Positions 4,723 to 40,229 of a stretch of 64,000 nt of DNA are shown here, in pieces (the first letter of the stretch is position 1; every line of letters begins with the position of its first letter). The notes under the pieces were generated by a model that was not told the DNA's origin, made no database searches, and was given only the letters and a program-made list of their open reading frames with translations. The stretch spans positions 1 through 64,000 of the forward strand of contig CAMYJU010000011.1 of the NCBI GenBank assembly GCA_947258795.1, given 5' to 3'. Origin of the DNA: an uncultured Gammaproteobacteria bacterium (lineage in GTDB: Bacteria; Pseudomonadota; Gammaproteobacteria; DRJJ01). The position numbers and the translations under genes were made by a program.

Positions 4723-6062
4723 TTATACGCTTTTGACGCCCTGTACCAGCTTCGCCGCCATGTCCTGGCCGTCACCGTAAAGCATGCGGGTCTTGTCGTC
4801 ATAAAACCGGCACCTGTACCGCGTTTGATCACGATGATATTTTTCGATTTGTCCGCATCCAGTATCGGCATACCATATATCGGGCTGTCCGGATTGGTCC
4901 GTGCGACCGGGTTGACCACGTCATTGGCGCCGATCACCAGGGCGACATCACAGGTAGTAAAGTCCTCGTTGATCTCGTCCAGGTCAAAGATCAGGTCGTA
5001 CGGCACCCCGGCCTCAGCCAGTAGTACGTTCATGTGACCCGGCATACGACCGGCAACCGGGTGGATTGCAAATTTTACCGTTACGCCACGTTCGATCAAC
5101 TGCTTCGACAGTTCCCAGATCTTGTGCTGGGCCTGCGCTACCGCCATGCCGTAACCGGGAACGATGATCACCTTGTCGGCGAAGGCCATCATCACCCCGG
5201 CGTCATCCGCTTCGACCGGCTTCAATGAACCTTCGACCTGCTCCTCACCGGCGCCACCGCTGGACCCGAACGAACTGAACAGTACATTGGTCAATGGCCG
5301 GTTCATGGCCCTGGCCATCAACTGGGTGAGCAGGGTACCGGCTGAACCGACCACGGTACCGGCGATGATCATCGCGGCATTGTTCAGCACAAAACCTTCC
5401 AGGCCAACCGCCAGGCCGGTCAGGGCATTGAACAGCGAGATAACCACCGGCATGTCAGCACCACCGATCGGCAGGGTCATCATCACGCCAAACACCAGCG
5501 CCAGTACAAAGAACAACACGATCACAGTAGCGTCGGGCTCGACAAAGCCAATATAGACACCACTAACCACGGTCAGTGAGAACAGCAACAGGTTGATCAA
5601 CTGCATCATCGGCAGGTTCACGGCCTTGCGTAACCAGCCCTGCAGTTTTGCAAACGCGATCAGACTGCCACTGAATGATACCGCGCCGATCAGGGCACCG
5701 AGCACGGCCAGGTTCATATGCACCAGGCTGTGTTCGCCGTACTTGACCAGCTCGACCGCGGCGATTGCGGCGGCCGCGCCACCGCCCATGCCGTTATACA
5801 ACGCAATCATCTGCGGCATGTCAGTCATCGCCACGCGTTTGCCGGATACGTATGCAATCACTGAACCCATGATGATCGCAACCAGCATCAACGCAATATT
5901 TTCCAGGCCGGGGATCGCAAAGGTCACCAGCGTAGCAGCCATCATGCCGACACCGGCCCAGAGGATACCGCCGCGCGCCGTCGACGGCGAGCTCATGCGC
6001 TTCAGGCCAAAGATAAACAGGAAGGCAGCAACGAAATAGATGGCCTCGATCAGGTTATCCAT
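4723..6062 (-). CDS. pntB: NAD(P) transhydrogenase subunit beta, frameshifted near the C-terminus
   Basis: Membrane and NADP(H)-binding subunit of proton-translocating transhydrogenase. The start at 6062 follows AAGGAGAAAAAG. Membrane helices fill the first half; the NADP(H) domain holds IVPGYGMAVAQAQ, HPVAGRMPGHMNVLL and IGANDVVNPVA. The reading frame as sequenced breaks after KRGTGAGF: plus-strand 4803-4806 has four A where five would restore the normal ending (YDDKTRMLYGDGQDM and GVKSV, stop 4723-4725). Read unshifted, the frame continues to 4641 with a nonsense tail. The restored protein would have 446 residues, normal for the family. Either a sequencing error in a homopolymer or a recent mutation. 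Confidence 0.93.
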
Positions 6063-6351
6063 TCTTTTTCTCCTTGCTGCTCTTGAACATTTCCAGCATG
6101 CGCTCGGTGACCACATAACCGCCGACAGCGTTCATCGACGCCAACAGCACACCGAAGAAGCCGATCACCTGCTCGGCTGTGGTTTCGGCATGGCCCAGTG
6201 CGATCATCGCGCCGACCAGCACAATACCGTGGACAAAATTCGAGCCGGACATCAGCGGGGTGTGCAGGATCACCGGGACCCGGCTGATCACTTCATAGCC
6301 GGTAAATGCGGCCAGCATGAATATATAGAGTGCGGTAAAACCTTCTATCAT
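6055..6351 (-). CDS. pntAB: NAD(P) transhydrogenase alpha subunit, part 2 (membrane)
   Basis: A 98-residue membrane part of the transhydrogenase alpha chain (split-subunit type, as in Rhodospirillum). The start ATG at 6351 overlaps the pntAA stop (ATGA), pointing to translational coupling. Three hydrophobic helices are visible (ALYIFMLAAFTGYEVI, FVHGIVLVGAMIALGH, VIGFFGVLLASMNAVGGY), with the conserved HTPLMSGSNFVHGI loop between the first and second. The 3' end overlaps the start of pntB by 8 bp. Confidence 0.93.
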   Translation of the reverse strand: MIEGFTALYIFMLAAFTGYEVISRVPVILHTPLMSGSNFVHGIVLVGAMIALGHAETTAEQVIGFFGVLLASMNAVGGYVVTERMLEMFKSSKEKKNG

Positions 6352-7481
6352 GAGGATGCTCCTTCCAGACGCTCCCGGGTCGCCTCGTGTACGATTGCTG
6401 CGTCCCGGGTGATGGTGCAATCGAGCAGGATCTCGTCTTCCCAGTCCGGCTTCAATTCACCATCGACGATCAACAATTGCACCAGGTTATACAGATTACG
6501 CGAGTACATCTCACTGGCATGGATGCCGAGCATGCCGGGCACATGCAGCGGACCATGTATGGTTACACCTTTGTGGGTAATGGTCTTGCCGGGTTCGGTC
6601 AGCTCACAGTTGCCACCGCTTTCCGCAGCCAGGTCGATGATCACTGAGCCCGGTTGCATGCGTTCGACCACCGCGGTTTCAATCAGGCGCGGCGCCGAAC
6701 GACCGGGCACATGCGCAGTACAGATCACCGCATGTGCTGCGGCGACCGTGTTCTCCATCATCTCGCGTTCCTTGTGTTTTTCCGCCTCGGTCAATTCACG
6801 GGCATAGCCGCCTGCACTGGACGCATCGACGCCGATCTCCAGAAACTTGGCGCCCAGCGATTCAACCTGCTCCTTGGTCACACTACGCACGTCATAGGCC
6901 TCGACCATCGCACCCAGCCGCTTGGCCGTGGCGATGGCCTGCAGTCCGGCGACACCGGCACCGATCACGAATACCTTTGAAGGACGTATCGTGCCCGCCG
7001 CGGTGGTCAGCATCGGGAAAAACCGCGCACTCAGATCGGCTGCCATCAAGGCCGCCTTGTAGCCGGCAATCGCGGCCTGTGAAGACAGGCTGTCCATCGA
7101 CTGCGCGCGTGAAATACGTGGCACCATTTCCATCGACAGTGCGGTGATCTTGCGATCACGCAAGGCCTTGATCACCTCATCATTGTCATACGGGTTCAGA
7201 TAGGAAATCAGGATGGTCCCTTCCTGCATCAGCGCGATCTCATCCACAGATGGCGGCGCCACCTTGAGTATGATGTTGGCTTTCGAACAGGCACCTGCTG
7301 CACTATCACTGAACTCGATATCGTCGTAATCGCTGTCAGGATAGAAACTGCCCTCACCTGCCCCGTTCTGCAGCACGACCTGTACACCAGCGCGGCTGAA
7401 TTTTTCGGCAATGGCCGGCACGATCGCGACCCGGTTTTCGCCCTCGCTGGTCTCTGTGGTGATTGCCACGCAAATAGACAT
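6348..7481 (-). CDS. pntAA: NAD(P) transhydrogenase alpha subunit, part 1 (NAD-binding)
   Basis: A 377-residue soluble NAD(H)-binding subunit (dI) of transhydrogenase, the first gene of pntAA-pntAB-pntB. The AlaDH/PNT fold is clear: N-terminal ETSEGENRVAIVP, the central SRAQSMDSLSSQA segment, then the Rossmann motif VIGAGVAGLQAIATAKRLGA and EAYDVR. It passes hydride to the PntB NADP site while protons cross the membrane, balancing NADH and NADPH. The upstream 330-bp gap to the divergent HNH gene should hold the operon promoter. Confidence 0.95.
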   Translation of the reverse strand: MSICVAITTETSEGENRVAIVPAIAEKFSRAGVQVVLQNGAGEGSFYPDSDYDDIEFSDSAAGACSKANIILKVAPPSVDEIALMQEGTILISYLNPYDNDEVIKALRDRKITALSMEMVPRISRAQSMDSLSSQAAIAGYKAALMAADLSARFFPMLTTAAGTIRPSKVFVIGAGVAGLQAIATAKRLGAMVEAYDVRSVTKEQVESLGAKFLEIGVDASSAGGYARELTEAEKHKEREMMENTVAAAHAVICTAHVPGRSAPRLIETAVVERMQPGSVIIDLAAESGGNCELTEPGKTITHKGVTIHGPLHVPGMLGIHASEMYSRNLYNLVQLLIVDGELKPDWEDEILLDCTITRDAAIVHEATRERLEGASS

Positions 7482-29311: not shown

Positions 29312-29405
29312 TGCTAACGACTAAATAAACCGGACCTGCTACCGCGCAGTGTTTGAGGCTCCGAGCAGGGCCAACGGCCATGCGTGGTTGAATACCTTGC
29401 TAGAG
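29312..29405 (-). other. attC site of the FxsA-like cassette
   Basis: Outer core TGCTAAC at 29312-29318 and GCTAGAG at 29399-29405, the latter overlapping the gene's stop. Between them an imperfect palindrome with CCTGCT...AGCAGG. It is the last site of the array. Confidence 0.5.
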
Positions 29406-29828
29406 TTTAGGTTCATAATTTGAGTCAAAGTTTCGAACAATTGGACTGGTTATCCAGGCAAAAAGAATTACTAAACCCAGTGCATCTGTGACTACACCAG
29501 GAATTATTATAAGTATAACCGCCCAAATAAATAGCCCAACCAATATACCTACCTTACCAAAATACTGTACATATGGATCATTGGGATCTTTTTTACTTTT
29601 ATCAGACATAGATTCCCAATCAGCGTTTTTAATTACTCCAAGCATTTCTTTTTTTCGGGATCGATTTATCCAGACAAACAACAATCCTGCTGCTGTTGTC
29701 ACTATATATACAGAAACTAAATTTAAAATGCCGAGTTTATCAACTAAGTACGCAGTTACAGTTACCTCTGCAATAGCTGCAATTAACATGATTACTGTAA
29801 ATACAGCAATTTTATTTTTGGTAATCAT
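29400..29828 (-). CDS. FxsA-like membrane protein (cassette gene)
   Basis: A 142-residue protein resembling FxsA: two N-terminal helices (VFTVIMLIAAIAEVTVTAYL, LVSVYIVTTAAGLLFVWI) and a C-terminal pair containing LIIIPGVVTDALGLVILF, the PG-x-TDxxG signature of that family. In E. coli FxsA is an inner-membrane protein linked to exclusion of phage T7 by F. Its stop lies in an attC core, marking it as a cassette. Confidence 0.75.
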   Translation of the reverse strand: MITKNKIAVFTVIMLIAAIAEVTVTAYLVDKLGILNLVSVYIVTTAAGLLFVWINRSRKKEMLGVIKNADWESMSDKSKKDPNDPYVQYFGKVGILVGLFIWAVILIIIPGVVTDALGLVILFAWITSPIVRNFDSNYEPKL

Positions 29829-29835
29829 TGAAAAA

Positions 29836-29910
29836 CTCTAACGCCTCTAGCCTGCGACCTCGGAAAGCACGTAGCGCTTAAAGCGGTTCGACTGCATGCG
29901 CTTGTTATGT
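29836..29910 (-). other. attC site of the 74-residue cassette
   Basis: CTCTAAC at 29836-29842 and GTTATGT at 29904-29910, with partly complementary inner arms and a central AGCGCTTAAAGCGG hairpin. The GTTATGT core matches the ACATAAC core on the other side of the cassette. Confidence 0.6.
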
Positions 29911-29964
29911 GTGACTTTGTCTTTCATTTATTCGGTTTGCTTTCCTACCTCGTCGCTATTTCTT

Positions 29965-30189
29965 TTAATTTCGCCTTTGGGAGGGTGCTCCAAATTCCTC
30001 TTTGAATTCTGCAAATGCTTTCTCCAATTCTTCGCTGTTGGTAATCTTATCGAGGTTCTCTAATAAAATTGTCAATAGATAGTTGTTACCATAGTGATAC
30101 TTATCGTTCAGGCTGCGAAGGTTTTCATATGCTTTTTCCGATAACGCCGCATTGAATCGTTTGGGTAGTGGAAATCTTTTTGCTGGCAT
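29965..30189 (-). CDS. Small ribbon-helix-helix-like protein (cassette gene)
   Basis: A 74-residue basic-then-acidic protein: KRFNAALSEKAYENLRSLND and YHYGNNYLLTILLENLD. The strand-helix-helix order is reminiscent of CopG/Arc proteins and antitoxins, but no partner toxin is adjacent and the match is by eye. Bounded by attC cores ACATAAC and GTTATGT. Confidence 0.55.
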   Translation of the reverse strand: MPAKRFPLPKRFNAALSEKAYENLRSLNDKYHYGNNYLLTILLENLDKITNSEELEKAFAEFKEEFGAPSQRRN

Positions 30190-30216
30190 CTTTTTATTTT
30201 AGCTCCTCCTCGTCAC

Positions 30217-30282
30217 ACATAACGTTAAAATTGTGGAGACGGATAAAGCGCACAGCGCTTTAAACGGTCCCACACGAATAAC
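30217..30282 (-). other. attC site split by an IS110-type element (larger part)
   Basis: ACATAAC (30217-30223) followed by GTTAAAATTGTGG, a central AAAGCGC-aca-GCGCTTT hairpin and CCACACGAATAAC. The matching outer core GTTATTC lies at 30796-30802. Joined directly, the right end mirrors the left end base for base around TAACGTTAT, so the intervening 513 bp were inserted between the inner arm and the outer core. Confidence 0.7.
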
Positions 30283-30795
30283 TTGACAATCATTGAGGCC
30301 TCCTTCCCCGACTTTCAGGCTCCACCCCGAAGGGTGCTCCTAGACGTCCATAGACGTAAGTTGTTCTTGAGAACAATGCGAAAAAGGAGGCCTCACATGC
30401 AATTCTACACTAAAATTCAACAACATTACTGCGGTACCGTTCTGCATACTTTGACCTTGTATGTCTGCATACTCAACCAAACGGCTGTCATATTAGTTCA
30501 TCATAATATTAAGATAGACCAAGGCCGATGATGCCTAGCTGTATTACCTGCTCGGCTCGATCTGCGTCATCGGCAAGATCCTGACCCTGACCTTGCTATA
30601 TGAGATCCAGCACATTCAGCGCTTTCCGAGCGCCGGTCAGTTTTATCTTATGCTCGATTGGTGTTTAGTCGCAGGCGATGCCTGTTGCTGTGGTTGGAAT
30701 CAAGTCAGAATATATGGATAAACCTGATTAGGATAAAGCGGCTATCGCCGCTTTATAAACCTCTATTGCCTGTTGACAGCGGGGGCCTCGTAGGT
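30283..30795 (+). mobile_element. Decayed IS110-family element inside an attC
   Basis: The N-terminal part of the transposase (MQFYTKIQQHYCGTVLH, 30397-30531) and a later piece (ICVIGKILTLTLLYEI followed by RFPSAGQFYLM, about 30550-30650) are present, with the middle deleted. The first metal-binding Asp of the GIDLH motif is replaced (GTVLH). Both ends carry sub-terminal GAGGCC/GGCCTC. It has no target duplication, as expected for the family. Clearly inactive. Confidence 0.7.
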
Positions 30796-30814
30796 GTTAT
30801 TCGCTTCTTCTTAC

Positions 30815-31321
30815 TTAAATCGAGTTAATGAATTTATCAACGTCATTTTTATATTCAACTGGGTTATACCCATTTTCACAGTTTGCATGGACATACCCAC
30901 CATAGTTCATTCCTAGATACTCAAATGTACTTTTAAAAGAATTAATGAATGAACTGTCAGCATCATTACTAATTGATGTACATACAATGTAAGCAGTCTT
31001 ATTCCTTAGGCTCCGACCTATATCTTTTAATTCATCTACATCTAATAAATCTGAGGTTCTATCTATAAATGTTTTCATTTGTGCGCTGGGTCCATACCAA
31101 TAGATAGGCGTTACAAAAATAATTTTCTCATATTCCAATATGCAATTCATTACAGTAACAAAATCATCATTGATGTTTTTGTGTTCGTAATCATAAGGAG
31201 TAATATCTTTTTCTGATAGATCGATGATTTGAATGTCCATGCTGCTACCGATCCAGTCAATAAACTGGCCTGTATTACCATTTCTTCTGGCACTTGCGAA
31301 TAACGCTATTGCTTTACTCAC
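30815..31321 (-). CDS. Flavodoxin-fold NAD(P)H reductase (cassette gene)
   Basis: A 168-residue flavoprotein-like protein: ALFASARRNGNTGQFIDWI (FMN phosphate loop), IIFVTPIYWYGPSAQMKTF and IDRTSDLL typical of NADPH-dependent FMN reductases. AT-rich compared with the core genes. Lies between two attC sites. The substrate cannot be told. Confidence 0.85.
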   Translation of the reverse strand: MSKAIALFASARRNGNTGQFIDWIGSSMDIQIIDLSEKDITPYDYEHKNINDDFVTVMNCILEYEKIIFVTPIYWYGPSAQMKTFIDRTSDLLDVDELKDIGRSLRNKTAYIVCTSISNDADSSFINSFKSTFEYLGMNYGGYVHANCENGYNPVEYKNDVDKFINSI

Positions 31322-31338
31322 TATCGATTTCTTTTAGC

Positions 31339-31455
31339 GTATAACAACGCCTTTGTAACAGACATTTTTTGTGGAGTGGAGTTTTGGGGTAAAGTGGTGA
31401 AGCCACCCCAAAATGGAGCGTAACAAAAAATGTCCTGTTGACAAAATTGTTATGC
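31339..31455 (-). other. attC site of the YdeI-like cassette
   Basis: GTATAAC at 31339-31345 and GTTATGC at 31449-31455, which overlaps the stop codon of the cassette gene. Inside, ACATTTTTTGT pairs with ACAAAAAATGT and TTTTGGGGT with ACCCCAAAA, giving a long stem with bulges: a clear attC. Confidence 0.82.
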
Positions 31456-32052
31456 ATTTTTCGTCTTTTTGAAGCCAAAGCCCGGCTTTTCTTCTCGGAC
31501 AAGCATGTCCATGAATATTACAAATCGACTCTTTCTAGTTTCGGGTTTCTTCGCACTTGTCAATCCGTGCGCGATGACATAACGACTCGATTTGTTGAGC
31601 GTTTCAAAAAACTGTTTCGCCTTCGGCTTGCTCTCCAGTACTGCCAGGAAATCCGCTGGCACTTTCATATCACTTGCCGCATAGGCGTTCTCCCACCGGC
31701 CGTCCGCTTTGGCAGCACGAATATGCACGAGACCTGACTCCGTCATCCGGCCCTCGCTTATCAAACGCTCCGCATGCTCTCTGTTCCTTTTCGACCAGTT
31801 GCTTCGAGCTTTTCTGGGAGTAATTCGCTGGAAATAGGCTTGGTCATCGATTGACTTCTTGACGCCGTCGATCCAGCCCCAGCACAGTGTCTCAATCACG
31901 ACATCGTCCCAAGTCACGCTCGTAATACCAGTCTTTTTCTTGAATATCTTCACCCACAGTTCACTTTCGGTGGCGTGATTCACCTTGAGCCACCGGCCGA
32001 GATCTTTCGGCGTTGTAAAGGTCATGATTCTCGCTGGATCGGGTTCAGGCAT
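31450..32052 (-). CDS. YdeI/OmpD-associated family protein (cassette gene)
   Basis: A 200-residue protein with the YdeI pattern: LGRWLKVNHATESELWVKIF, CWGWIDGVKKSIDDQAYFQR, ITPRKARSNWSKRN and the C-terminal segment with ETLNKSSRYVIAHGLTSAKK. The family is linked to tolerance of cationic peptides and to bacteriocin protection in some hosts. It is GC-richer than the other cassettes, hinting at a different source. Confidence 0.85.
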   Translation of the reverse strand: MPEPDPARIMTFTTPKDLGRWLKVNHATESELWVKIFKKKTGITSVTWDDVVIETLCWGWIDGVKKSIDDQAYFQRITPRKARSNWSKRNREHAERLISEGRMTESGLVHIRAAKADGRWENAYAASDMKVPADFLAVLESKPKAKQFFETLNKSSRYVIAHGLTSAKKPETRKSRFVIFMDMLVREEKPGFGFKKTKNA

Positions 32053-32070
32053 GAAACTTGATTCTCTTCG

Positions 32071-32125
32071 GCATAACGTTCTGTTAACTGGCGGAGGCGC
32101 GTCAGCGCCGGAGACCAGGTTGAAC
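32071..32125 (-). other. attC site split by a second IS110-type element (larger part)
   Basis: GCATAAC (32071-32077), then GTTCTGTTAACTGG, a GGCGC-gtca-GCGCC hairpin and CCAGGTTGAAC. The other core, GTTATGC, is at 32793-32799. Rejoined, CCAGGTTGAAC-GTTATGC mirrors the left end. The insertion is at the same place as in the other split site. Confidence 0.7.
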
Positions 32126-32792
32126 TGCTTGATACTTGTTTATGAAATTCTACACCAAAACATATCAAAATTATTGCGGAATTGATCTGCATACCAAAAC
32201 ATTGTTTGTCTGTATTATCAATAACCGAGGTGAAATATTAGTGTATCGTGATATACCAGCAAACCCGGAGCCTTATTTTCAAGGTCATCGCCGATTATCG
32301 TGAGGACCTGGTCGTCGGCGTGGAATGTATATTTTCATGGTACTGGCTCACATTAAGCTGACGAACTATCAATATAACTTTCCCACCCTTGAAAACACAT
32401 TGGCAAGAAAGGCTATCGTTAGGATCTGGCTGAACGCTTTACCGATGCCAGTGTACGTAATAATGTCAAGGTTGATTTGGCAGTGGCTGATCACACGCAT
32501 GAGCTGATCACCCAGCTCGAAAACTATTTAGTCCGCCACGCCAAATAATTTGATCCCAGAACCTATTATCGATTGCAACCGGTGCGCGGTATCGGAAAAA
32601 TACTGGCGCTGGTGATCATTTCGATCATAAGAAACGCGTAACGGATGCTCGATAGATGTTTGCTTGCAGCCATGCCTGCTAAACCGATTAACTTGTGTGC
32701 AGCCGTGGCGTTATTTGCTCTTATACTACAACAAAAAGTGTTTTTTTGTTTTAGGACCGGTTTGCGCTATTGACAGGGGCGGTCATATAGAT
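32126..32792 (+). mobile_element. Decayed IS110-family element inside an attC
   Basis: Transposase pieces in several frames: MKFYTKTYQNYCGIDLHT with the catalytic GID at 32142, EDLVVGVECIFSWYWL near 32300, a middle part with DASVRNNVKVDLAVADH, and LQPVRGIGKILALVI near 32580. Stops and shifts disable it. Its right end (TTGACAGGGGC...GAT before GTTATGC) is similar to that of the other element. Its insertion changed the end of the neighbouring cassette gene. Confidence 0.75.
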
Positions 32793-33155
32793 GTTATGCC
32801 GGTATACACTAATTGATTTAAAACACATAACGATTTGCGATATCAAAAGTATCACCACTAAATACTTTATATAATTTTCTATATACGACAATCCAAGGAT
32901 ACTTAGTAGTATTACAATTAGTAAAGAAACAAATAAATTTAGTATATTAAAAATAAGCACGTTAGATATACTTCTAAATTTATATCTTGCGATATTTCTA
33001 GCGCCATATGCTAGTAAGCCGAAAGCTATTACACCAAGTACATATAACAGAATTGTCGTATAGAATATAACTTGCTCAAGGCCTGCACCATAAGATGCAT
33101 ACGCACATGTTGGTAGCAAAACTATAGAAAATAATGTTTTTACTGCTCGGCTCAT
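32751..33155 (-). CDS. Membrane protein of unknown function (cassette gene, altered C-terminus)
   Basis: A 134-residue protein with an N-terminal signal-like helix (LFSIVLLPTCAYASYGAG) and three further hydrophobic segments (FYTTILLYVLGVIAFGLLAY, ISNVLIFNILNLFVSLLIVI, YLVVILLISQIVMCF). The frame crosses the attC core at 32793-32799 and ends inside the IS remnant (IYMTAPVNSANRS); before the insertion it would have ended shortly after HN. Function unknown. Confidence 0.6.
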   Translation of the reverse strand: MSRAVKTLFSIVLLPTCAYASYGAGLEQVIFYTTILLYVLGVIAFGLLAYGARNIARYKFRSISNVLIFNILNLFVSLLIVILLSILGLSYIENYIKYLVVILLISQIVMCFKSISVYRHNIYMTAPVNSANRS

Positions 33156-33170
33156 AAATCACCTTATAAG

Positions 33171-33284
33171 GCATAACGCAGCCTTTAACCAGACAACAAT
33201 AGTAACACTTGTTTGTGATAATTGTGCACAACGACATATACAAACCAGGTGACGCTATCGGCAACCTGATTTGAAGGGCATTGT
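33171..33284 (-). other. Degenerate attC site of the acetyltransferase cassette
   Basis: GCATAAC at 33171-33177 with CAGCCTTTAA, opposed by TTGAAGGGCATTGTTTATT ending at 33284. Arms are only partly complementary and the right core is off consensus. Assigned mainly by position between two cassette genes. Confidence 0.4.
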
Positions 33285-33291
33285 TTATTTT

Positions 33292-33915
33292 TTATTTGCA
33301 CACATACTCATATATACACGCTTGGCCACCTTTAGTAGCAAACTCATGCAGTGGTGAATCAAAATCACCCAGGTGCCTAAATCCCAGCAGCTCATAAAAG
33401 CTACTAGCACCGAGCTTGTTAGTTTCTACAAGAATCGAACTAACACCGCTATCTTTACACTGTTGTAGAAATCCAGACCAAAGCTTCTTTCCATATCCCT
33501 TTCCTTGATGTTCCCTGCCCACAACAAATAAAGTAATTTCACTTCTTTTTCTACCTGTTAATTTGTTTCTGTTATGTTCGTGATCTTTAATCGCATTTAA
33601 AAAATCCTTTTTATTCACGGGTCTCTCAGACTTTACTCTTATTAGTCTCCATAACATACTCAGTCTGTAAAGAATATTTATACCCGGCTTTCCTGATCGC
33701 TCATTAAGACCAAAAATAAACCCTGCCACTACACCATCTACTTCGATCACCATTCTATAGTTACTAACCAGAACCGAACCTTTTGTATACATGCATTTTG
33801 CCAAATTCGACAGAGCTTCAGGAGCGTAAATAGTGTCGAAACCCCATGCCTGATTCACTAGAGATTCACACTGCTCATAGTCCTCTTCTCTATATTCTCT
33901 CAGTATCTCTTTCAT
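33292..33915 (-). CDS. GNAT N-acetyltransferase (cassette gene)
   Basis: A 207-residue acetyltransferase. Motif A VVGREHQGKGYGKKLWSGFL with the acetyl-CoA loop HQGKGYG (about 143-149) and motif B VETNKLGASSFYELLGFRHL are clear. The N-terminal half (YREEDYEQCESLVNQAWG) is also typical. Acceptor unknown. Acetyltransferases are common in cassettes. Confidence 0.9.
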   Translation of the reverse strand: MKEILREYREEDYEQCESLVNQAWGFDTIYAPEALSNLAKCMYTKGSVLVSNYRMVIEVDGVVAGFIFGLNERSGKPGINILYRLSMLWRLIRVKSERPVNKKDFLNAIKDHEHNRNKLTGRKRSEITLFVVGREHQGKGYGKKLWSGFLQQCKDSGVSSILVETNKLGASSFYELLGFRHLGDFDSPLHEFATKGGQACIYEYVCK

Positions 33916-34014
33916 TTATTCCCACATAATAAATAATGGCGATACCTGACAAAATTCTAATAATCACAACAATTCTTCTCAGGCCCAGTTTTTAACTCAA
34001 GTTATTACTCCGAC

Positions 34015-34086
34015 CCCTAACTCCCACTGCGAATGGGCTTATTGATGATTTATTATTGGGCTTGATGCTACTGTCGCTTGTTAGGC
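34015..34086 (-). other. attC site of the DM13 cassette
   Basis: CCCTAAC at 34015-34021 and GTTAGGC at 34080-34086. The right half (CTACTGTCGCTTGTTAGGC) is nearly the same as that of the 34602-34688 site, but the left arm pairs poorly, so the exact left end is uncertain. Confidence 0.5.
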
Positions 34087-34099
34087 GAAGTTGTTTTCA

Positions 34100-34576
34100 T
34101 TATTGGTACTTGGCCGACGTAATAAATTGGCTAAAAGCCTCGCACCAAACAATAACGCTGTTGTAGTTCGACGGATCGATACCTGGTGGCACTTCAACGA
34201 CAAAGTTATCAAATGTTTTAACATCTCCTATGCGCACCATAGTGGTCTTTAATCGATTGAAGTCAACTTCAGTCTCAACGAATTCTGGAGAAAGATAGAG
34301 CTTGTAATCCGGACCGGGTGCAAGCTTACCCATAAGGGTAATGGAGTTAGATCCAACTGAAACCGTACCCTCTCCCCAATGCAGTGTATCGCTATCTTTA
34401 AGATCTTTTCGGAATTGTGCTACGTACTTAGCTTGCGAAGACATTACCTTGATCTCTTCTTCACTGGGAGCAGGCGGAGCAGTAAGAATAGGGAGCAAAT
34501 AGATTCCAGCTCCGACTCCTAAAGCACCTACCACGCAATGTGTAGCAATAAGGAATGCGATAGTACGTATCTTCAT
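34100..34576 (-). CDS. DM13 domain protein (cassette gene)
   Basis: A 158-residue exported or membrane-anchored protein: N-terminal helix (TIAFLIATHCVVGALGVGAG) then a DM13 domain (GEGTVSVGSNSITLMGKL, GPDYKLYLSP, FDNFVVEVPPGIDPSNYN and SVIVWCEAFSQFITSAKY). DM13 domains are proposed to bind a redox or metal group through the conserved Cys in the VWCEAF motif. Common in cassettes of marine gammaproteobacteria (from memory). Confidence 0.85.
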   Translation of the reverse strand: MKIRTIAFLIATHCVVGALGVGAGIYLLPILTAPPAPSEEEIKVMSSQAKYVAQFRKDLKDSDTLHWGEGTVSVGSNSITLMGKLAPGPDYKLYLSPEFVETEVDFNRLKTTMVRIGDVKTFDNFVVEVPPGIDPSNYNSVIVWCEAFSQFITSAKYQ

Positions 34577-34601
34577 AATGATTCTAAGTATGTTTGTTTG
34601 C

Positions 34602-34688
34602 GCCTAACGACTACGCTCAGTTGAAAGCAAAAGCAAGCGAAGCGCCGCTTTAGTGAATCAACTGGAGCGCCACAGTCGCTTGTTAGGC
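34602..34688 (-). other. attC site of the DUF4279 cassette
   Basis: GCCTAAC (34602-34608) and GTTAGGC (34682-34688) are perfect complements; inside, CAGTTGA/TCAACTG and AGCGAAGCGCCGCTT give the usual bulged stem. The gene's TAA lies in the right core. A textbook 87-bp attC. Confidence 0.92.
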
Positions 34689-35108
34689 ATTTTCATCTTT
34701 AACAGGGTCATAAATGTCTAAACCTAATTCAATGCCTCTAGCTCCCAAAGAGTATAACGTAGCCGGCGAAATTGCGAGGCCTTCATTACTTTCTTCCATG
34801 AATAAACCACAGAACAAATCAAGTTCATATTTTTCTGATAGCTTTTTCCATACTGCCAAATCATTTGATAGTTTATTTAGCATTTCTGATACCTGAGCAT
34901 CAATGTTCTCAGGCTCACAATCTTCGGCACATAAGCGCCACATACCAATTTTAACCACCCTTTCTCTACCTGTTTTCTTACCAACTATTACCTCACCTTT
35001 TATTTGACCATGAGTTGGCTGGCATCCCAGTATTTTTGTTATTTCGTCTGGTAATAATTCATCACCGCTAATTCTTAAAGTAGCTACTGAGCGTGAGAGA
35101 TGTGCCAT
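34683..35108 (-). CDS. DUF4279 domain protein (cassette gene)
   Basis: A 141-residue protein matching the DUF4279 pattern: VATLRISGDELLPDEITKIL, GCQPTHGQIKGE, a GMWRLCAEDC strand, a helical middle and the ending LGARGIELGLDIYDPV. Function of the family is unknown. Stop codon in the attC core. Confidence 0.85.
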   Translation of the reverse strand: MAHLSRSVATLRISGDELLPDEITKILGCQPTHGQIKGEVIVGKKTGRERVVKIGMWRLCAEDCEPENIDAQVSEMLNKLSNDLAVWKKLSEKYELDLFCGLFMEESNEGLAISPATLYSLGARGIELGLDIYDPVKDENA

Positions 35109-35118
35109 TTTATTTTAT

Positions 35119-35202
35119 GCCTAACGTTTTACTCAGCGGAAAATCACCTGTCGAGCCGATAGGCGGAGCAGATGAATTTTCCGCTGAAGTGGCTTGTTAA
35201 GC
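35119..35202 (-). other. attC site of the first cassette
   Basis: GCCTAAC (35119-35125) and GTTAAGC (35196-35202). CAGCGGAAAATC pairs with GAATTTTCCGCTG, with a bulged TCGAGCCGATAGGCGGAG loop. Right core overlaps the gene's stop. The GTTAAGC core equals the one at the array's start (35842-35848). Confidence 0.9.
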
Positions 35203-35822
35203 ATTAGTGTACTCTGGTGCTATCTCTTCTAGGGACAATATAGTTTCATGTGCTATTTGCCTAATGCAGGCTAGCTCTGGTTTGCCCTTAAACTTTTCTT
35301 GAATATCACCTTTAGAAAACACCCAGCCAAGTGAATTATTTCTAGATAAATCCATATATGCTTCTTCAAGATCAGGATCAACATGAGCACCACCGTCGGT
35401 GTCAGCTACATTTTGGATAAGCTCACGTCTACAGAACTTTCCTCCCTTCTGATCTTTAAGAACAGGCTCATTCCACCATTCAACAAATTTGACTCGCTTT
35501 GGCTGATATGGGGAGCCACCCGCTTGGCAGGCGGCCAGGTATATTGCCTCTTCATTGCTCATCTTCATAACTACCAATGGCATTTCAGATAACAAATTAT
35601 CATGGTTCAGTGGGCCAGCCGAATCAAAAAACCTATTATTCCGAAGGTCAAGCTGTTCTAGGAGTGAGCGAGACTGACCATGATGGTGAATTAAAACTCT
35701 CAATATCAGAGCAATATGCTTTCCGATCGCTTCCAGTCCCGAATCGTAAGAATCACAAGAATTTTTCAGCAGGGAGATCTGGTCTCTTCTTTGCTTCTAG
35801 CTACACGCTTTTTCTTTGTCAT
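35197..35822 (-). CDS. Hypothetical cassette protein with an apparent frameshift
   Basis: The uninterrupted frame covers 35197-35703 (TTG start) and encodes IHHHGQSRSLLEQLDLRN and VKFVEWWNEPVLKDQKGG. It is open further upstream (LLKNSCDSYDSGLEAIGKH) without a start codon, while a good start exists at 35822 (AGGGA then ATG, MTKKKRVARSKEET) in the next frame. One missing base near 35777-35780 would join both into about 208 residues. No family recognised. The cassette boundary lies 20 bases before the ATG. Confidence 0.6.
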
Positions 35823-36944: not shown

Positions 36945-39900
36945 CTAGAACTTACCGTAATAGCCTTCTTTCAGAGCGTCATACAGATTGGCCGCAGTGT
37001 GCATCTCGCCATCGTATTCCACTTCCTCGTTACCCTTGAGTTCTACCACGCTGCCGTCATCCAGGGTAAAGGTATAGGTGGTGTTCTCCAGGTCTTCCTC
37101 TTTCACCAGTACGCCCTGGAACGCCTCAGGATTAAAGCGGAAGGTAGTACAGCCCTTCAGGCCCTGGTGATAGGCATACTGGTAGATGTCCTTGAAGTCC
37201 TCGTACGGGAAGCTGGTCGGTACATTCGCGGTCTTGGAAATACTGGAGTCGATCCACTTCTGCGCCGCTGCCTGGACATCGACGTGCTCACGCGGGGTGA
37301 CGTCTTCCGCGGTAATAAAGTAGTCCGGCAGTTGCTGTTCGGGCTCTTCACTGAACGGCATCGCTTCCGGGTTGACCATCTCACGATAGGCCAGCAGCTC
37401 GAACGAGTACACGCCGACCTTTTCCTTGGTTTTCTTGCCTTCACGGATCACGTTACGTGAGTAGTGATGAGCGAAACTCGGCTCGATACCGTTACTGGCG
37501 TTATTGGCCAGTGACAGCGAGATGGTGCCGGTTGGCGCGATAGAGCTGTGATGGGTAAAGCGCGCACCGGTCTTTTCCATATCTGCGACCAGTTGCGGAT
37601 CGACCTCGGCGACCTGCTGCATATAGCGGCTGTAACGTGCATGTAACACCTTGCCCTTGACCTTGTCACCTACTTCGTAACCTTCGTTGGCCATATCCGG
37701 ACGCTTGCACAGCATCTCGGCTGTGACCTCGAAGTCTTCTTCCATGATCGGTGCAGGACCCTTCTCCTTGGCCAGATCCAGGCCTTCACGCCAGCCTTCA
37801 ATGGCCAACTCCTGGCTGACTTTTTCGGTGAAGTCCAGTGAGGCACGCGAACCGTACTTCATGCGCAGCATGGTCAACGTCGAACCCAGACCCAGAAAAC
37901 CCATGCCATGACGACGCTTGTGCATAATCTCATGGCGCTGCTCTTCCAGCGGCAGACCATTAATCTCGACCACGTTATCAAGCATGCGTGTAAATATGCG
38001 CACGGTCTTGCGGTAGTCTTCCCAGTTGAAGCTGGCCTCTTCGGTGAACGGGTGTTCGACAAAGCGGGTCAGGTTGATCGAACCGAGCAGGCAGGAGCCG
38101 TATGGTGGTAACGGTTGTTCACCACAATTATGTGCATGCAAACCATTTGCATCAAAACTATTGATACCGGGTATCTGCACGTCATACACATCTTCAATAC
38201 CATCCTCAGTGACTGCCTCGACTCGCGCAACAAAACGCTCGCGATTCAGCTTGCGGTTATAGTCTGCCAGGGACTGCTGCAGGCGCTCCGCCTTGTCCGT
38301 ATCGGCGAAACTGATTTTTTCATTGAACTGCAACAGATTTTCACCGCTGATGACCAGTTCATGCTGCGCCCTGGTCTTGTATTTATCCATACCGCCTTTA
38401 CCATTTGGCAAAAAGCTGATAGATGCCGGACGACGGTTTTTGTACAGCCGTGAGACAATACCCAGACGCAGCAGCATGCGCTGCACCGCTTCCAGCCGCG
38501 GCAGATCAGATTGCGACAGGCGCACACTAACGCCTTTTTCCTGCGAACCCTGCACCGAGCCATCCACATCGAACAGACCGCGCAGGAAACCCTGGTAGAA
38601 ATCACTGGACGCCTTTTCTACACGATCAGTGATCGCTTTATCGCCGGGTTGCATGCCCACTTCGTTTGCAAGCTGATGTATGGCTGACAGCTTCAAACGG
38701 TATTCATTACGATCAGGTATTTCTGACCAGCCCTGAAAATCACTGCGGTGCGGCAGGGTTTCTGCAGCATTGAGCGCCTCGGCCATGACTGCCTCGACAC
38801 CACTGTGCAATTCTGCATCAGACGCATTTGCTACAGCGGCAGGTTTCCACACAGACAGCACGGCGGCATCCTTTTTCAGGGTGCCATCTCCAACCAGAAG
38901 ACCCAGTAAATATCCCTGCGCTTTGGTATATTCTCCTTGCCATTGCGGGTTTACACGGTGATCATTCAGCAATACCCGGTCACCGGTTTTCAGCTCACCG
39001 GCCGCACACCATTCCGTTTCGGTCTGATAACGCGTAAAGCTGCTCACACGCCGCACACGATGATCACTGGTAAGGCGTAGCTGGTAACCTTCCGCGGTCT
39101 GTAATGACAGAACCGGTTTGGTAGCGGTTTTAAAGAAACCTTCATGCCCTGATGCATGCGCCTGGCCATCAACCCGCGCCATGAACGGTATACCAATCAG
39201 GTCGCCAACCTGTTGCGGACCGTTAATGGTCTGCACCCAGGTATCCGCGGTCACGCAAGGATTGGTCGCACGGACATTTTCACAGAACCAGTTGTTGTTC
39301 AGTTCGTTGACCTTGTCGATCAGGATAAAGCCCGGCTCGGCAAAATCGTAGGTGGATGACATGATCACATCCCACAGCCGGCGCGCCGGTATGGTCTTGT
39401 ACACCCGGCAGGCAACCAGGCCCTGGTCGTTACTGACATAACCATCCGAGTCCGGCCATTCCCGCCAGATCAGGTTTTCGCTGTCTTCCAGGTCAATTTC
39501 ACCGCTTTCCTGCTCCTTTTTATCGATCGGGAAGGCCAGCTTCCAGTCCTTGTCATGCTCGACGGCCTGCATGAAGTCGTCGGTAATCAGCAGCGACAGG
39601 TTGAACTGACGCAGGCGACCGTCTTCGCGCTTGGCGCGGATAAAGTCCACCACATCCGGGTGACCGACATCGAAGGTGGCCATTTGCGCACCACGTCTGC
39701 CACCGGCACTGGAGACTGTGAAACACATCTTGTCGTAGATATCCATGAACGACAGCGGCCCGGAGGTATAGGCACCGGCCCCGGAGACATAGGCGCCTTT
39801 CGGGCGCAGGGTCGAGAATTCGTAACCGATACCGCAACCGGCCTTCAGGGTCAGGCCTGCCTCGTGCACCTTGTTCAGGATATCGTTCATGGAGTCATGT

Positions 39901-40229
39901 ATCGTGCCGGAAACGGTACAGTTGATCGTGGACGTGGCCGGCTTGTGTTCCTGGGCACCGGCATTGGAGGTGATGCGACCGGCCGGGATCACCCCGCGGC
40001 GCAGGGCCCAGGTAAACTGCTCGAACCAGTGCTCTTGCAACTCAGCCGTGGTTTCCACATCTGCCAGGGCACGGGCCACACGCTTGTAGGTGTCGTCCAT
40101 ATCCTGGTCAACCGGTTCACCACCCTTGCTTTTAAGCCGATACTTCTTGTCCCAGATGTCCATTGAGGCGGGCTGAAAGGGTATTTCGGTAACGCGCGTT
40201 GTGACAGATTTCAGATAGGCTGGCTTCAT
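36945..40229 (-). CDS. nrdJa: Class II (B12-dependent) ribonucleotide reductase with intein
   Basis: A 1094-residue precursor. The host enzyme reduces ribonucleotides using adenosylcobalamin and works with or without oxygen. Visible: PAGRITSNAGAQEHKPATS, GCGIGYEFSTLRPKGAYVSG, MATFDVGHPDVVDFIRAKRE, the active-site loop ATNP-CGEQPLPPYGSC split by the intein, and FTHHSSIAPTGTISLSLAN. After intein removal (residues 325-701) the mature chain has about 717 residues. The Cys after the intein (702) is the equivalent of the thiyl-radical cysteine (NxCxE motif). Confidence 0.95.
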   Translation of the reverse strand: MKPAYLKSVTTRVTEIPFQPASMDIWDKKYRLKSKGGEPVDQDMDDTYKRVARALADVETTAELQEHWFEQFTWALRRGVIPAGRITSNAGAQEHKPATSTINCTVSGTIHDSMNDILNKVHEAGLTLKAGCGIGYEFSTLRPKGAYVSGAGAYTSGPLSFMDIYDKMCFTVSSAGGRRGAQMATFDVGHPDVVDFIRAKREDGRLRQFNLSLLITDDFMQAVEHDKDWKLAFPIDKKEQESGEIDLEDSENLIWREWPDSDGYVSNDQGLVACRVYKTIPARRLWDVIMSSTYDFAEPGFILIDKVNELNNNWFCENVRATNPCVTADTWVQTINGPQQVGDLIGIPFMARVDGQAHASGHEGFFKTATKPVLSLQTAEGYQLRLTSDHRVRRVSSFTRYQTETEWCAAGELKTGDRVLLNDHRVNPQWQGEYTKAQGYLLGLLVGDGTLKKDAAVLSVWKPAAVANASDAELHSGVEAVMAEALNAAETLPHRSDFQGWSEIPDRNEYRLKLSAIHQLANEVGMQPGDKAITDRVEKASSDFYQGFLRGLFDVDGSVQGSQEKGVSVRLSQSDLPRLEAVQRMLLRLGIVSRLYKNRRPASISFLPNGKGGMDKYKTRAQHELVISGENLLQFNEKISFADTDKAERLQQSLADYNRKLNRERFVARVEAVTEDGIEDVYDVQIPGINSFDANGLHAHNCGEQPLPPYGSCLLGSINLTRFVEHPFTEEASFNWEDYRKTVRIFTRMLDNVVEINGLPLEEQRHEIMHKRRHGMGFLGLGSTLTMLRMKYGSRASLDFTEKVSQELAIEGWREGLDLAKEKGPAPIMEEDFEVTAEMLCKRPDMANEGYEVGDKVKGKVLHARYSRYMQQVAEVDPQLVADMEKTGARFTHHSSIAPTGTISLSLANNASNGIEPSFAHHYSRNVIREGKKTKEKVGVYSFELLAYREMVNPEAMPFSEEPEQQLPDYFITAEDVTPREHVDVQAAAQKWIDSSISKTANVPTSFPYEDFKDIYQYAYHQGLKGCTTFRFNPEAFQGVLVKEEDLENTTYTFTLDDGSVVELKGNEEVEYDGEMHTAANLYDALKEGYYGKF
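38127..39257 (-). mobile_element. Intein with LAGLIDADG homing endonuclease
   Basis: Residues 325-701 of the NrdJa precursor (377 residues). Block A starts CVTADTWVQTINGPQQVGDL; block B is RLTSDHRVRRV; endonuclease motifs are YLLGLLVGDG and FLRGLFDVDG, each with its acidic residue, so the nuclease may be active; block F is YDVQIPGINSFDANGLHAHN, followed by +1 Cys. All splicing residues (Cys1, TxxH, penultimate His, Asn, +1 Cys) except a classical His-Asn context are in order: the end is HN-C. Confidence 0.95.

Follow-up and report, generated by a model that had tools for sequence, protein, structure and literature searches.

Two remnants of insertion sequences (ISs), here called E1 and E2, lie inside two attC sites of one gene-cassette array in a 64,000-nucleotide stretch of contig CAMYJU010000011.1 from an uncultured Gammaproteobacteria bacterium (hereafter the window). 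We conclude, with a probability of about 0.85, that both are defunct copies, shortened by internal deletion, of an IS110/IS1111-type lineage that homes to integron attC sites and would, by analogy, be RNA-directed. The array lies on the (-) strand, and the transposase remains of both IS110-type remnants read on the + strand, against the cassettes. Dead elements of this sort are unremarkable when taken alone, and the interest of E1 and E2 comes from the intact lineage to which they belong, which enters attC in a manner of its own.

Both remnants were found in their own genome with a transposase profile made from four full-length relatives, and the E-values of the transposase pieces apply to that one genome. 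The parts of the two elements are as follows.

30286-30794 (+): E1, an internally deleted IS110/IS1111-type element whose ends and transposase pieces match intact relatives, with TG at either side.
30290-30399 (+): E1 leader, in which the left repeat TGAGGCCTCCTT pairs with AAGGAGGCCTCA directly 5' of the start codon.
30397-30525 (+): E1 transposase N-terminal piece, profile residues 1-43 (E 7.5e-9).
30494-30643 (+): E1 transposase C-terminal piece, profile residues 204-253, with three stops (E 1.8e-6).
30664-30794 (+): residual 3' noncoding part of E1, with hairpins, the right end and TTGACA at 30773-30778 (nhmmer E 6.5e-4 for 30726-30798).
32132-32791 (+): E2, an internally deleted element assigned by its ends and transposase pieces to the same lineage as E1, left repeat lost.
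32142-32367 (+): E2 transposase N-terminal pieces, residues 1-44 and 44-75, frameshifted (E 2.1e-11 and 6.1e-4).
32414-32647 (+): E2 transposase middle and C-terminal piece, residues 170-247, with three stops (E 1.5e-9).
32639-32791 (+): residual 3' noncoding part of E2, with TTGACA at 32770-32775 and ATAGATGTT, a 9-mer identical to the element's own right end.

From the profile coverage, E1 lacks approximately residues 44-203 and E2 approximately residues 76-169, and both lack the C-terminus. The pieces match a profile of full-length, IS110-annotated relatives with a DEDD transposase, which places both remnants in the IS110 superfamily. In Pfam, the first 53 residues of E2 reached PF01548 at E 0.006, below the cut-off of that family, and the E1 piece gave no IS110 match. 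The same 53 residues matched 14 records of plasmid IS110-type genes at 38-57% identity, from Alteromonas, Pseudoalteromonas, Vibrio, Salinivibrio, Catenovulum and Candidatus Manganitrophus.

The original prediction had placed two IS110-family remnants with decayed transposases at the identical point of two attC sites, and the profile matches, the ends and the frameshifted, stop-containing and internally deleted pieces bear this out. The interrupted sites, as defined by folding of the rejoined flanks, and an uninterrupted neighbor that serves as internal control are listed here.

30217-30282 (-): attC of cassette 7, R'-L'-L'' part.
30797-30803 (-): attC of cassette 7, R'' core side.
32071-32128 (-): attC of cassette 5, R'-L'-L'' part and spacer.
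32794-32800 (-): attC of cassette 5, R'' core side.
31339-31455 (-): uninterrupted attC of cassette 6, with spacer AAAATT before GTTATGC.

With borders taken from intact relatives, the junctions of E1 read CGAATAAC-T-TG(30284-30285)-[30286-30794]-TG(30795-30796)-TTATTCGC and those of E2 read GGTTGAAC-TGCT-TG(32130-32131)-[32132-32791]-TG(32792-32793)-TTATGCC. The insertion point is the same in both, between the attC spacer and the R'' core. That part of the earlier proposal holds; its exact borders were a few bases off, since the relatives show that the bases after TTGAAC at E2 belong to the attC spacer and not to the IS. As had also been predicted, removal of the elements restores attC: both rejoined sites have inverted cores and a folded hairpin, with z-scores of -5.3 for E1 and -3.3 for E2, and in each case 0/200 shuffles were as stable (RNA energy parameters). 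As a separate observation, the cassette gene before E2 (32751-33155, -) reads through the R'' core into the right end of E2, such that its last codons and stop are supplied by the IS.

A scan of bacterial genomes with the relatives' alignment confirmed 194 stretches, and the best 80 of the 194 were retained. Counts below refer to 84 loci, comprising 79 of these 80 plus L012, L013, L016, L017 and L018; L026 was excluded from all counts because its genome and match are the same as those of L025, and L011, L014 and L015 were inspected by eye only. As far as record titles tell, the hosts are marine or saline Gammaproteobacteria. Within the window's own family and order two genomes were searched for a closer relative, and the one with a match was the window's own. 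The remnants' relatives are 62-72% identical to one another, and intact copies have a single DEDD transposase gene with ~450 nucleotides (nt) of structured noncoding sequence 3' of it, the longer 3' noncoding region being a feature of the IS1111 family. The annotation around an IS on a P. aeruginosa plasmid (H16) shows no cassette array.

The left end of the lineage, TTGATACTCATTGAGCCTYCTCCC, lies ~80 nt 5' of the start codon, and the right end, TATTGAC...GGCTCATATGTG-TTA, lies ~440-560 nt 3' of the gene, although at some loci it was truncated or could not be located. The end repeats are ~6-9 base pairs (bp) long (TGAGCCTYC / ..GGCTCA), with ~8 and 4 nt outside them if TG is the shared core; in IS1111 elements, according to passages of PMC11187229, the subterminal inverted repeats usually measure 11-13 bp and leave 7 bp outside on the left and 3 bp on the right. 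E1 retains a left end TTGACAATCATTGAGGCCTCC and a right end TTGACAGCGGGGGCCTCGTAGGTG-TTA, and its repeats, GAGGCCTCC and GGGGCCTC, are unlike those of the lineage yet still match each other. In E2 the left end is reduced to TTGATACT and the right end reads TTGACAGGGGCGGTCATATAGATG-TTA. Under a left-end weight matrix applied to all window positions on both strands, E1 ranked first and the truncated end of E2 ninth, and under the right-end matrix E1 ranked second of 127,938 window positions. The TTGACAG that the original prediction had noted near the right ends of both remnants belongs to the conserved right end of the lineage. In 69/70 distinct leaders and in E1, bases directly 5' of the transposase start codon pair with the repeat of the left end, and this pairing may hold translation low in the inserted state. 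In five Shewanella copies (L048, L063, L066, L070 and L076), an additional TTGAC..GCAGTCAAAT.AGTTA unit precedes the normal right end and is perhaps a nested or duplicated end.

The target of the lineage was read from the same loci. Elements were removed by script and the flanks rejoined at 62/84 loci, the other 22 being unscored due to a right end that was not found or was cut (19), no left end (2) or a short left flank (1). An attC-like hairpin was restored in 41/62 loci, compared with 191/1239 random GTTR sites of the same loci, which may themselves include genuine attCs of the same arrays, and with 103/1240 shuffled flanks under the same rule. A second rule called 38/62 loci attC-like against 112/930 and 97/1240 in the controls. 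Gene context was counted in the 60/84 loci whose right end is followed by 450 nt or more of sequence: an opposite-strand open reading frame (ORF) of at least ~80 codons ends between -25 and +90 nt of the right end in 48/60 loci, versus 130/1200 random places, as expected for a cassette gene followed by its attC. E1, E2 and, by this gene context, 48/60 relatives share insertion in attC with the transposase against the cassettes.

Uninterrupted attCs that share the last bases of an occupied flank were available in 11 rows, and 8/11 read NNNNTT-GTT as predicted. In distinct generic sites, T stands two bases before GTTR in 14/14 and directly before it in 12/14. From these uninterrupted attCs, the target reads NNCTTG-TTA when empty and NNCTTG-ATACTC...GGCTCATATG-TG-TTA when occupied, in which case the element is bordered by TG at either side; the sites of E1 and E2 conform to this target.

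For the region 3' of the transposase, 19 relatives (20 sequences were selected and L039 was omitted) gave a consensus fold with 46 base pairs, and at 29 of these both sides have changed in a compensatory manner. The fold is incomplete in E1 and E2, both of which keep the last ~130-150 nt of the noncoding region and have lost its 5' half; an Rfam scan of the window at gathering thresholds gave 0 matches. About 130 nt 5' of the right end, the RNA region contains ATATGTGTT, which equals the right-end 9-mer plus TG plus TT. Where the right end carries the variant ATAGGTGTT (4/67 loci), the same variant occurs in the RNA region in 4/4, and E2 carries its own variant, ATAGATGTT, in both places. This match, with natural variants in step, makes the 9-mer a candidate guide only. 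A repeat common to E1 and E2, ATGCTCGAT..TGTTT, was considered as a shared guide and rejected: its left half in E1 reads as transposase codons, and for that reason only the 9-mer of E2 is used.

Several results weigh against this interpretation. The right end of E2 is weaker, ranking only 197 of 127,938 under the right-end matrix, and its RNA-region piece is not significant by itself (nhmmer E 2.6). The first attC rule, an over-strict one that asked for near-perfect outer cores, did not separate loci from controls (11/62 vs 95/744) and was replaced by the two looser rules, of which the one giving 41/62 still leaves 21/62 loci that are not called attC-like. Three of the 11 uninterrupted rows (L071, L072 and L085) align uncleanly. 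The RNA 9-mer is unlike the right end in 4/67 loci, the RNA match was not found in 2, and a second guide segment for the other half of the target was not identified.

The 21 uncalled sites could mean that the elements home to any palindrome or hairpin, of which attC is merely a common case, and other IS110/IS1111 elements do target palindromic repeats (REP), as passages of PMC11187229 report. We find this very improbable, because the gene context (48/60) and the fixed NNCTTG-TTA of uninterrupted sites fit attC, and several of the uncalled sites resemble, by eye, long Vibrio-type, very short or damaged attCs.

The original prediction had regarded E1 and E2 as old members of the known IS1111-attC group (the ISPa21, ISKpn4 and ISPst6 kind), which would account for much of what is seen: both are IS110/IS1111-type elements in attC, oriented against the cassettes, with a downstream noncoding region and subterminal repeats. 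There is also diversity within that group, with TnpKpn4 and TnpPa25 46% identical in the part of PMC11187229 that describes them. Comparison was made by sequence with ISPa21, an attC-targeting member of the IS1111 group (passages of PMC11616780), and with ISKpn4, ISPst6 and ISPa25 through descriptions in parts of PMC11187229. We located ISPa21 on plasmid pME-1a, where the record labels it only "IS110 family transposase", with the help of passages in PMC7232449 and PMC6739498, and its position after smr in the integron agrees with those passages. It lies against the cassettes, has end repeats GGACTCTCCCC/GGGGAGAGTCC in place of TGAGCCTYC/GGCTCA, and is flanked by GGCTTGAA on the left and GAATTGTTAG on the right; the corresponding uninterrupted sites on this plasmid have GGCTTGAACGAATTGTTAG. 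ISPa21 therefore keeps the attC spacer GAATT on its right and inserts before the spacer, ~5 nt from the point used by E1, E2 and their relatives, which insert after it.

The transposase of ISPa21 differs as well: it aligns with the lineage only locally, at ~20-30% identity (best E 3e-5), whereas the relatives are far closer to one another. ISPa21 pairs instead with an IS in the window's own genome, at 45% identity and with tree support 96/89, apart from the lineage; given long branches and weak deep forks, our claim from the tree is limited to that pairing. Membership of the IS1111-attC group is consequently very improbable, and we conclude that, as far as sequence comparison with ISPa21 tells, E1 and E2 come from a different lineage with an insertion point of its own in attC.

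The partner of ISPa21 is an IS1111-type element with an open frame on contig C18, at ~46-48 kb (L002, L116). Its right end lies before GATTTGTTAG, and its right side, GGGAGCGTCCATAGACGATTTGTTAG, adjoins a second cassette-like stretch with an attC, which is the ISPa21-type position; on its left side no attC was visible. By these sequences, one genome carries traces of both kinds of attC insertion.

Least probable of all is that E1 and E2 are non-autonomous mini-elements that remain mobile because another locus of the genome supplies a transposase in trans: both keep their outer junctions and the genome has four intact IS110-type genes, but 0/4 belong to the lineage (the best, C6, is ~30% identical to L013), the rest of the genome holds no further copy (only 22- and 26-bp chance-level matches), E2 lacks the left repeat, and both lack the 5' half of the RNA region.

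We return to E1 and E2 as probably dead copies, without much of the transposase and RNA region, of an attC-homing lineage. To what is read from the sequences (lineage, ends, target, orientation, flanking TGs, conserved RNA fold and the 9-mer equal to the right end) we add by inference a circle, RNA guiding, strand exchange at TG and loss of cassette mobility. In IS1111 and IS110 elements, the transposase is bound by a noncoding-region RNA that specifies the target, and a promoter arises when the ends are joined (passages of PMC11187229 and PMC11208160). By analogy with the tested seekRNA and bridge-RNA elements, RNA from the downstream noncoding region would join the transposase, and the complex would recognize NNCTTG-TTA at the R'' end of attC. 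A circular element would insert there, leaving TG on both sides and the transposase gene against the cassettes, and end joining would form a promoter that takes its -35 part from the right-end TTGAC(A). With a large part of the transposase gone, the RNA region shortened by its 5' half and, in E2, no left repeat, neither remnant should be able to move by itself.

We consider it somewhat better than an even chance that separate RNA-guided IS110/IS1111 branches have adopted attC as an insertion site on two or more occasions. The branch of E1 and E2 would then have spread in marine Gammaproteobacteria, exchanging strands at TG beside the TTA of the R'' core, and its guide RNA would thus have come, by convergence, to use the best-conserved bases in the recognition site of the integron recombinase, ~5 bases from the ISPa21 solution. 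Among the open-access titles and abstracts examined, none concerned attC insertion by this marine lineage, and in Shewanella no IS interrupting attC was detected, according to a passage of PMC9229058. If true, RNA-guided transposition has targeted attC repeatedly, and with two solutions ~5 bases apart one could compare directly how guide RNAs come to recognize a folded recombination site. Such insertions would also add a common way by which cassettes may be frozen in marine integrons, with dozens of intact elements available as natural variants of ends and guides.

The surroundings of the remnants include the following.

29400-35703 (-): gene-cassette array with nine small genes (DUF4279, DM13, GNAT, OmdA, FMN reductase, FxsA and three without a Pfam match).
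36945-40229 (-): intein-containing large chain of ribonucleotide reductase (matches to Intein_splicing and LAGLIDADG_3).

No integrase gene was seen beside the array in the window. On another contig of the genome (C39, 7406 bases; L117, L118, L122), positions 5465-6441 match an integron integrase in two separate frames (profile 1-117 and 110-314), perhaps reflecting a frameshifted intI or an assembly error.

Outside the IS1111-attC group, three known systems invite comparison. In the published model of IS621, a bridge-RNA element of the IS110 group, one dinucleotide is reportedly common to both junctions, and we liken it to the TG on both sides here. IS621 has a DEDD recombinase too (passages of PMC11208160), but the RNA of the IS110 group lies upstream, whereas the region of our lineage lies downstream, as in IS1111. 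Group II introns of class C-attC, named in a passage of PMC9229058, also use attC as a home; they are retroelements and share nothing with E1 and E2. The seekRNA elements ISEc11, ISPa11 and ISEc21 differ in that the present lineage is known from sequence alone, with only one candidate guide segment recognized. They likewise combine one transposase, a structured noncoding region, a fixed target and an end-join promoter, as set out in parts of PMC11187229, and the -35-like TTGAC in the right end of the lineage is the putative counterpart of one half of that promoter.

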